Source of the DNA: Eubacteriales bacterium | Lineage (GTDB): Bacteria > Bacillota > Clostridia > Acetivibrionales > JANLFN01 | DNA: 64,000 bases | Assembly: GCA_024655885.1 (NCBI GenBank) | Contig: JANLFN010000007.1 | Coordinates: forward strand, 118,162-182,161 | Direction: 5' to 3' | In this document: in pieces, positions 35,652 to 37,800 of the stretch | Layout: each line of letters starts with the position of its first letter | How positions within the stretch are numbered: the stretch's first letter is position 1 | Translations under genes and position numbers: made by a program | Notes under the pieces: generated by a model | The model's input: only the letters and a program-made list of their open reading frames with translations | Databases searched by the model: none | What the model was told of the DNA's origin: nothing

Positions 35652-35825
35652 TCATCCTCTGACCCGGTGGCTCACCCACCCGCACCGGGAACATCCGTTT
35701 TCGAGCAAGCTCTCCCTATCTGCTTTTCTACCGCACCTGGGGCAGGTTTTGGTACCCCTTTTATCCTCATTTTCTCTTATCAGCTCCCCCAGTACTTTCC
35801 ACCCATTCTCCCAGGGAAGCCCCAT
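35652..35825 (-). CDS. Small zinc-ribbon protein (not in ORF track)
   Basis: MGLPWENGWKVLGELIRENEDKRGTKTCPRCGRKADRESLLENGCSRCGWVSHRVRG*, two CxxC knuckles; overlaps 3' end of the GvpA/GRAM gene; start codon uncertain. Confidence 0.5.
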   Translation of the reverse strand: MGLPWENGWKVLGELIRENEDKRGTKTCPRCGRKADRESLLENGCSRCGWVSHRVRG

Positions 35826-36735
35826 TGCTGGAAAAACAGGCCACTTTGCTCTCTTTTCCTCTTTTGTACAATACGATCAGGGATTTTTCCTGTACCGGTG
35901 CGGTTCCGAACTGCACATTCTGCACAGTAACGTGCATGATCTGATGGGAAGGAATCTCAAAAAGCAGCTTCCTCTCAAAATCATACCACCAGCACAGCCT
36001 CCGGTTCGTCAGGTACAGATGTCCCGGCTTCCATTGGGAACGGATGCCTCCATCCGCCTCCGAGGGCAGTTGGTACCACATCTTTTCTGAATGAGTCACA
36101 TCTTCTTCAGGCTGCAGGAAATCCCCCGCCACTTCCTTCTTCTCCGGGAAGACAGGATTGTCTTCAAGGCTGAGCCCTTTTTCCTTTAAGATGTTTTCAA
36201 CGGCTTTTTTCAGAGCATCGATATCCTTGGTGTGCAGCCGTGCCACCTCGTTATCCTTGAATAAAATATGAAGTTCTTTCCTCTTTTCGCCGGTGAAATG
36301 ATCCCTTTTCTGAAGGGACATGGCCTTTATTTCCTCATAATATATCTCAAATAGGACTTCGGCCGGCATTTTTCTGAACATGACCAGCCTCTTGTCCGTA
36401 ATGCATATGGTCCCTGCCCTCCAGCTGTTATAGATACCCTTGCTGTACCAGTGGGTACCAAACACAGAAAAAACAATGGACTCATCCCTCCCCAGCGGAG
36501 GCCTATTTATTTCGGTTTCCCTCATGGCCGCAGCGCGCTGTGCTTCATCCCAATCCTTCATGATGCCGTATTCCAGCATTGTTTTCATCCCTGCCAGGGC
36601 CAGTTTCAGGTTAACTCCCAGTAAAGGGATTCCCGCAACAGATATAATCATGTCGGTATTCAGCAGGATTCCCTTATCCAGGATTCGATCCAGCAGGTCG
36701 TTAAGCGTCGCTTGGGGACTCCGGGTTGGCTCCAT
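35767..36735 (-). CDS. GvpA/GvpJ-family gas vesicle domain fused to two GRAM/PH-like repeats
   Basis: N-terminus ATLNDLLDRILDKGILLNTDMIISVAGIPLLGVNLKLALAGMKTMLEYGIM; then WRAGTICITDKRLVMFRKMPAEVLFEIYYEEIKAMSLQ and WKPGHLYLTNRRLCWWYDFERKLLFEIPSHQIMHVTVQ repeats. Confidence 0.75.
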   Translation of the reverse strand: MEPTRSPQATLNDLLDRILDKGILLNTDMIISVAGIPLLGVNLKLALAGMKTMLEYGIMKDWDEAQRAAAMRETEINRPPLGRDESIVFSVFGTHWYSKGIYNSWRAGTICITDKRLVMFRKMPAEVLFEIYYEEIKAMSLQKRDHFTGEKRKELHILFKDNEVARLHTKDIDALKKAVENILKEKGLSLEDNPVFPEKKEVAGDFLQPEEDVTHSEKMWYQLPSEADGGIRSQWKPGHLYLTNRRLCWWYDFERKLLFEIPSHQIMHVTVQNVQFGTAPVQEKSLIVLYKRGKESKVACFSSNGASLGEWVESTGGADKRK

Positions 36736-36977
36736 TGTAACTCTCTTACCCCTTTGACCGATTCGGTAATCCCCTGTTCTTCCTTTATTTCCTCAATGGC
36801 CAGGTCCAGTTCCATCAAGGCATTTCCTAACCTCTCTATCTCCTCACCGGTTAAAACTCCGCTTTTAATCCTTTCACGGGCCTGGTGTTTCAAAGCGTCC
36901 CTGATGATTTCCACCAAAGCCATAATCAGCCCCAGCAAACCGTGTTTCAAATTATCCTCATTAATATCCAGCGCCAT
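36660..36977 (-). CDS. gvpK: Gas vesicle protein K
   Basis: MALDINEDNLKHGLLGLIMALVEIIRDALKHQARERIKSGVLTGEEIERLGNALMELDLAIEEIKEEQGI. Confidence 0.85.
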   Translation of the reverse strand: MALDINEDNLKHGLLGLIMALVEIIRDALKHQARERIKSGVLTGEEIERLGNALMELDLAIEEIKEEQGITESVKGVRELQWSQPGVPKRRLTTCWIESWIRESC

Positions 36978-37003: not shown

Positions 37004-37225
37004 CTACCGGAGTTTATCCAGCCGGATGCTCAAGATGTCGTGCCGCTGCTCTACCTTCACCCTGCCACTCACCGTGACCGAGGGAGGCACCTCAAAAACA
37101 ACCACCATGTGGTCGTCTTCCTCAAAAACATCTATCAGGGGCTTCCCTCCTTCCCCTGCCGGGAGAGAGCCGTCTTCTGCAAAGTCCGACAGCCACCAAT
37201 GAAAAAGCACCTTTTCCCCGGTCAC
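37004..37225 (-). CDS. Hsp20/alpha-crystallin-like protein (GvpH-like), short; possibly the 3' half of a gene interrupted by a stop
   Basis: GGKPLIDVFEEDDHMVVVFEVPPSVTVSGRVKVEQRHDILSIRLDKLR. Confidence 0.55.
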   Translation of the reverse strand: MTGEKVLFHWWLSDFAEDGSLPAGEGGKPLIDVFEEDDHMVVVFEVPPSVTVSGRVKVEQRHDILSIRLDKLR

Positions 37226-37255
37226 CGGGTCGATCCTGGATTTGCTGAATTCCGG

Positions 37256-37486
37256 TTAGAGGCTGCCGAGGATTCTCACCGCAGCGGGATTCATTACCTC
37301 CTTTAACCTGCATAAGACCTCCATATCGCCGGAGGCTCCGATAAAATCGGTCAGTTCGGAAAGCCTGGCATGTCTTTGGTCCCGAAGGTACCAGAATATT
37401 TTTCTGCTCTTCTCGTCCAGGGCCTCTAGGAATAGGCTTAAATCCCCTTTTGATCTGTTTTTCCCCCGGGGTCTCTCCATCCTCAT
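37256..37486 (-). CDS. Hypothetical protein, same frame as and immediately upstream of the Hsp20-like ORF
   Basis: MRMERPRGKNRSKGDLSLFLEALDEKSRKIFWYLRDQRHARLSELTDFIGASGDMEVLCRLKEVMNPAAVRILGSL*; GGGAGGTGG before ATG. Confidence 0.55.
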   Translation of the reverse strand: MRMERPRGKNRSKGDLSLFLEALDEKSRKIFWYLRDQRHARLSELTDFIGASGDMEVLCRLKEVMNPAAVRILGSL

Positions 37487-37525
37487 CCACCTCCCTCCCC
37501 AGGCTCTTTCACGAAATGTCATTTA

Positions 37526-37687
37526 TCATTTCTGACGGACAGGAGCTGCAATTCTCTGCATCCCTTCCAGTTCCTTCTCTTTTAGCTTCATTTCAGCTTT
37601 CGCGCTGATCCATCCGCACCACGGGCAGCACTCATTCAGCAATTCCTCTCTGCTCACTTCTTTTCCGCACTGGGGACATGTTTCCAC
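37526..37687 (-). CDS. Small zinc-ribbon protein (not in ORF track)
   Basis: GTG start; VETCPQCGKEVSREELLNECCPWCGWISAKAEMKLKEKELEGMQRIAAPVRQK*; similar to 35652-35825 product. Confidence 0.55.
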   Translation of the reverse strand: METCPQCGKEVSREELLNECCPWCGWISAKAEMKLKEKELEGMQRIAAPVRQK

Positions 37688-37800
37688 ACCGGCCTGGGCT
37701 TCCTTCCACGCTGCGGTTTAATAATTCGTTCCCGAAGGAAATAAAACCCCTGTTCTTTTTTATCATGAACAGGGGCTTTACTATTTCCTGTCTTAACCTT

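Follow-up and report, generated by a model that had tools for sequence, protein, structure and literature searches.

A gene in the 64,000-nucleotide stretch of DNA analysed here (the window) encodes a minor gas-vesicle shell protein of GvpM type that carries two PH domains in its tail; a four-cysteine zinc-ribbon motif once came after them. The gene is a relic of a decayed gas-vesicle (gvp) operon. The domain assignment is far above chance level, and the architecture is kept in eight other Firmicutes. Minor GvpA-family proteins are already known; the GvpM-PH-PH-ribbon architecture appears to be new within the literature searched. The window copy is broken and hence less interesting, and the family is better studied in relatives; the window itself is an instance of gas-vesicle loss captured part-way. 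The parts of the fusion gene are as follows (L021 denotes an orthologue described below).

35767..36735, minus strand: fusion ORF with GvpM-type domain, PH1 and PH2; 322 aa, ATG start, frameshift after about residue 311
36535..36735, minus strand: GvpM/GvpJ-type gas-vesicle domain, aa 1-67; PF00741 core at aa 10-48; NCBIfam GvpM match
36178..36495, minus strand: PH1, aa 81-186; bPH_3 above cut-off; Vps36 PH/GLUE matches here in orthologues; L021 strands 87-169, helix 172-185
35803..36120, minus strand: PH2, end truncated, about aa 206-311; Vps36 PH/GLUE at aa 232-269 (its best stretch), GRAM at aa 234-271; L021 strands 213-302, helix 305-323
35664..35813, minus strand: putative C-terminal zinc-ribbon module, CPRCG...CSRCGW, in another frame after the frameshift; found by tblastn and six-frame reading

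An earlier note on this DNA, made from the letters alone, had read the N terminus as a GvpA/GvpJ/GvpM-family domain and proposed an HMM search, and the results bear it out. In a profile search, aa 10-48 of the fusion matched the full Gas_vesicle profile (PF00741, positions 1-39) at E 3e-13, scoring 50.1 bits (cut-off 25). The gene setting agrees, as gvpK adjoins the fusion and the gvp clusters of relatives are fuller. The best NCBIfam model for aa 1-67 was haloarchaeal GvpM (NF046091), with which these residues align end to end (E 7e-25) at a score of 86.5 bits, under the curated cut-off of 109; judged by sequence, the protein is GvpM-like and is not classed as GvpM by that cut-off. Its likeness to GvpM and GvpJ of Halobacterium salinarum extends to the setting among gvpK, gvpF and gvpL genes and to a shared EYG motif typical of GvpJ/M (PMC8716928). 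However, GvpM has 84 aa, and the fusion family adds ~240–300 aa of PH-PH-ribbon. In Anabaena flos-aquae, GvpJ and GvpK are also minor GvpA homologues whose C-termini are unusually extended or fused to other parts, but what is added there is 21-aa repeats or, on GvpK, a GvpA-like domain, and not PH domains (PMC10903477).

The remainder of the protein had been described as a tandem GRAM/PH-like module, a description upheld by profiles on the window copy and by AlphaFold and Foldseek on an orthologue. The window fusion scored 23.7 bits with bPH_3 (PF14470; cut-off 23) and 25.3 bits with Vps36 PH/GLUE (cut-off 24.1), while GRAM (PF02893) fell narrowly under its cut-off of 23.6 at 22.7 bits. Among orthologues, GRAM reached 27.9 bits in L021 and 17.7 and 19.3 bits in two others, and L021 was above cut-off for bPH_3, Vps36 PH/GLUE and GRAM alike. 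AlphaFold was run on L021 (72% identical to the window fusion) with a nine-sequence alignment. In the resulting model (mean pLDDT 66.6), the gas-vesicle region formed a helix (7-20), two short strands and a second helix (43-55) at a pLDDT below 50, and the PH region formed two consecutive units, each with seven strands closed off by a helix, at residues 87-185 and 213-323. In a Foldseek search of the PDB, tandem-PH proteins came back at a probability of 1.00, namely BBS5 (E 1.8e-8), centaurin-alpha, Spt16 and Rtt106; whole-chain TM-scores were low (~0.2), plausibly because of domain placement and a gas-vesicle domain without confident modelling. With two profiles above their cut-offs and fold and Foldseek matches in agreement, the tail belongs to the PH superfamily, and the repeats of L021 fold as PH type, not as something unrelated. 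The likeness to bPH_3, GRAM and Vps36 PH/GLUE thus lies in profile scores near or above curated cut-offs and in the seven-strand-plus-helix fold. The difference is the fusion to a gas-vesicle domain: the searchable literature, which leaves most subscription journals outside, yielded no report of a gas-vesicle protein with a PH or GRAM domain.

Although the domains named in the earlier note stand, the ORF is a shortened form of a longer family protein and lies in a degenerate operon; the frameshift, the operon decay and the putative C-terminal zinc ribbon of the full protein had all been missed. Comparison with orthologues placed the frameshift near residue 311, within the last helix of PH2. 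Intact orthologues, at 359-372 aa, run beyond PH2 into a four-cysteine motif, CPxCGxxxxxxxLLxxGCSRCGW, and CPxCG...CxRCGW was present in all eight of them, with a weak match to Pfam Zn_ribbon_3 (E 0.06-0.09). In the window this motif is readable in another frame and matches orthologue aa 311-357 (tblastn E 3.5e-16); the window gene has therefore lost its frame towards the end of PH2.

A scan of one genome per species by exact peptide patterns, which picks up close relatives only, found the full-length fusion in eight further Firmicutes, 62-79% identical to the L021 protein. The carriers are two Desulfosporosinus, the Hungateiclostridiaceae MAG UBA1305 (source of L021), a Dethiobacter MAG, Lachnotalea, Clostridium sp. 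ZS2-4, Anaerosacchariphilus and Anaerobacterium. In these relatives the fusion lies inside fuller gvp clusters, and in two of them the fusion clusters hold GvpA, GvpN, GvpF/L, GvpG and GvpK together. GvpK was present in 15 of 398 sampled genomes of the phylum, two of which (the window's genome and one other) carried the fusion; in six more, a GvpA-with-ribbon gene was accompanied by a GvpM-type gene that lacks the PH region. For these genera, no paper on gas vesicles was found in the searchable literature.

In the Actinomycetota, where the search and any frequency drawn from it cover plasmids alone, a plasmid of Streptomyces sp. SGAir0924 encodes a 303-aa GvpM-PH-PH protein annotated only as 'GvpJ' (WP_137962300.1; 34% identity over 289 aa). 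Its gene lies between those for GvpA-with-ribbon and GvpK, and it and GvpA-with-ribbon are the only two PF00741 genes of the plasmid. Like the Firmicutes fusions, it has a GvpM-type domain followed by tandem PH domains and sits beside gvpK and gvpL/F, but it ends after PH2 without a ribbon, and its cluster has neither a single-PH neighbour nor a P1-extended GvpF (see below). The cluster (L067:7625-11594) consists of four genes, for GvpA-ribbon, GvpM-PH-PH, GvpK and GvpL/F, and is adjoined by a gene for a B12-binding sensor-like protein.

Beside the window fusion, the following remnants of the operon were found.

36741..36977, minus strand: gvpK remnant; PF05121 E 2.3e-15; tblastn matches aa 1-81 of 106; 3' end deleted
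37004..37522, minus strand: gvpH-like gene with Hsp20-like C-terminal half (Hsp20 E 3e-5); in-frame TAA at 37256-37258; homology in one frame to aa 1-153 of a relative's protein
37529..37750, minus strand: GvpA paralogue with zinc ribbon, reduced to its C-terminal half (aa 60-133); tblastn 85% identity; GvpA domain gone; one in-frame TAA

In relatives with fuller clusters, the gene order is Cdc48-type AAA+ or GvpL/F, (GvpG), GvpA-with-ribbon, Hsp20-like, GvpK, N-terminally extended GvpF, a single-PH gene (sPH), the fusion and a Cdc48-type AAA+. In the window, a deletion joins gvpK to the fusion, so that GTAAGAGA of gvpK abuts GTTACAATGGAG, the sequence immediately upstream of the fusion in relatives. 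This deletion, the junction of which abuts the fusion ATG, took out the GvpF and sPH genes together with the Shine-Dalgarno-like AAAGGTGG that precedes the fusion in relatives. No Cdc48-type AAA+ gene was found downstream of the window fusion. Adjacency to gvpK was considered and rejected as proof of function by itself, the gvpK being truncated.

A second gvp locus of the same genome (contig C15, L004:8800-15700) retains GvpN and one GvpA intact, with GvpG, GvpF/L, Cdc48, GvpH and the other GvpA genes reduced to fragments. A PF06386 search of the whole genome gave no full GvpF/L, the sole match being a 54-residue piece. What the genome holds is therefore an intact GvpN and one intact GvpA beside a fragment of GvpF/L, a truncated GvpK and a frameshifted fusion. 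GvpF and GvpL belong to the assembly complex in studied systems (PMC7688916, PMC11445434), and with only that piece left the strain in all likelihood forms no gas vesicles.

Across what survives of the coding sequence of the window fusion, no sign of relaxed selection was seen: in the PH part, unique changes at otherwise invariant sites numbered 4 of 68, within the range of the other sequences (0-9), and dN values were ordinary. The damage is therefore probably recent, or the window protein may retain some use. The latter would mean that the 322-aa protein still functions with a dispensable ribbon, kept for a purpose other than gas vesicles, which would fit both the ordinary site changes and the Streptomyces homologue that stops after PH2. 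However, its partner genes are broken or missing, its reading frame is lost within the last PH2 helix and its Shine-Dalgarno-like sequence has been removed, and we regard continued function as distinctly improbable. Far more improbable still is an intact operon obscured by sequencing or assembly errors. A single-base frameshift alone could be such an error in the assembled sequence analysed here; yet at least five separate lesions fall in a 2-kb stretch (the frameshift, two nonsense codons, deletions and gene loss), a second locus is degenerate, and the genome that lacks a full GvpF/L is rated 100% complete.

In all eight other fusion clusters, a GvpF with an N-terminal extension and the sPH gene lie directly upstream of the fusion. 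A profile of seven of these GvpF proteins matched the archaeal ribosomal stalk protein P1/L12p over its first 46 positions (profile against PDB, 3a1y, E 4.2e-11), and there was no Pfam match above cut-off for this P1-like domain. Such GvpF genes, at L021:4866-6008, L019:4740-5990 and equivalents, carry this archaeal-P1-like domain in a bacterium; the window has lost it by deletion. The sPH protein was modelled with a confident PH fold (pLDDT 85.8, pTM 0.76), its best PDB match being Vps36 PH/GLUE, and is strongly basic (net charge +6 to +16). The sPH and P1-extended GvpF profiles each matched every fusion cluster, and neither had a match in six clusters with an unfused GvpM (10-19 kb inspected in each). 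A Cdc48-type gene directly follows the fusion in seven of the eight clusters, and both Cdc48-type proteins scanned with Pfam had CDC48_N and two AAA domains. Cdc48-type AAA+ genes in Firmicutes gvp clusters were noted at L028:9837-11960, L029:1651-3816, L047:12551-14563, L048:11357-13393 and L049:6515-8557, and several fusion-bearing clusters contain two copies. Nothing relevant on Cdc48 with gas vesicles was found in the searchable literature. Two neighbouring Gvps have added domains, a PH-PH-ribbon on GvpM and a P1-like domain on GvpF, which suggests that several Firmicutes lineages, and Streptomyces in a reduced version, possess a branch of the Gvp machinery that we did not find in the searched literature.

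Gas-vesicle nucleation and the roles of minor GvpA-like proteins are an open question, and GvpJ, GvpM and GvpS are found in bicones and not in the cylinder wall (PMC10903477; for GvpJ/S in bicones also PMC11445434). It was previously shown that haloarchaeal GvpM uses its C-terminal part to bind GvpF, GvpH and GvpJ, and that up to 25 C-terminal residues can be deleted with gas vesicles still formed (PMC6107691, PMC8716928); this end of GvpM is therefore exposed and tolerant. In B. megaterium, every GvpS fusion tested still gave vesicles (PMC11445434). On balance, we lean towards the view that the intact relatives of the window protein use the PH-PH-ribbon tail as an enlarged docking surface, on a tip or nucleus subunit, where assembly factors bind from the cytoplasm. 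In relatives with fuller clusters, the GvpM domain would, like GvpJ/M/S elsewhere, become part of the emerging bicone or tip, and the tail would point to the cytoplasm as a docking platform, where it might recruit factors encoded by its neighbours to the growth site: the P1-like GvpF, the basic single-PH protein and the second Cdc48-type AAA+. Such a dock would extend the role of haloarchaeal GvpM, with its short, partner-binding C-terminus. More speculatively, the basic sPH and the acidic PH2 would suit mutual contact. Against obligatory partners, the PH-PH version of Streptomyces occurs without ribbon, single-PH gene or P1-extended GvpF, and these partners are therefore not needed everywhere; that they occur together in eight clusters may be due to shared ancestry instead of interaction.

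The earlier note had proposed that the tail could tether a Gvp-type polymer or nucleus to the membrane, a role for which we found no supporting evidence. Binding of lipid head groups is common among PH/GRAM folds, sPH, encoded next to the fusion, is strongly basic, and the nearest folds include BBS5 and Vps36, which bind phosphoinositides. However, PH2 was acidic in all eight intact orthologues (net charge -1 to -10) and PH1 near neutral (-2 to +5), net charge being a weak test, and Spt16 and Rtt106, also close folds, are protein-binding tandem PH modules; to our knowledge, phosphoinositides are generally absent from bacteria. We therefore consider attachment of the nucleus to the cell membrane through lipid-binding PH domains rather unlikely. 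The other role suggested, a scaffold unrelated to flotation, is likewise unsupported and was rejected as a default, as the clusters of relatives hold a fuller gas-vesicle set; the fusion therefore looks like part of ordinary gas-vesicle assembly.

A foldable, built-in tail on a minor shell protein offers an experimental handle on the gas-vesicle nucleus. A bolder form of the docking reading, to which we give little credence, is that in the intact Firmicutes clusters the tandem PH and ribbon on GvpM, the single-PH partner and the P1-like GvpF make up a nucleus adaptor platform through which a dedicated Cdc48-type AAA+ is brought in so that vesicles can be assembled, remodelled or dismantled; if true, this would be a layer of control that we have not found described for any gas-vesicle system.

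Other genes of these clusters were also recorded. The GvpA paralogue ending in a CPxCG...CPWCGW ribbon (L028:17514-17915, L067:9001-9456 and the window remnant at 37529-37750) occurs in many Firmicutes clusters and in Streptomyces. A protein of 467-499 aa lies beside gvp genes in three genomes (L004:11734-13233; L028:6084-7487, minus strand; L032:388-1884); the one copy scanned had no Pfam match and by eye appears propeller-like with a coiled-coil end. Two uncharacterised proteins of 295 and 244 aa, with no Pfam match, are conserved beside GvpA genes in two genomes (L028:14505-16270, L032:2242-4326).
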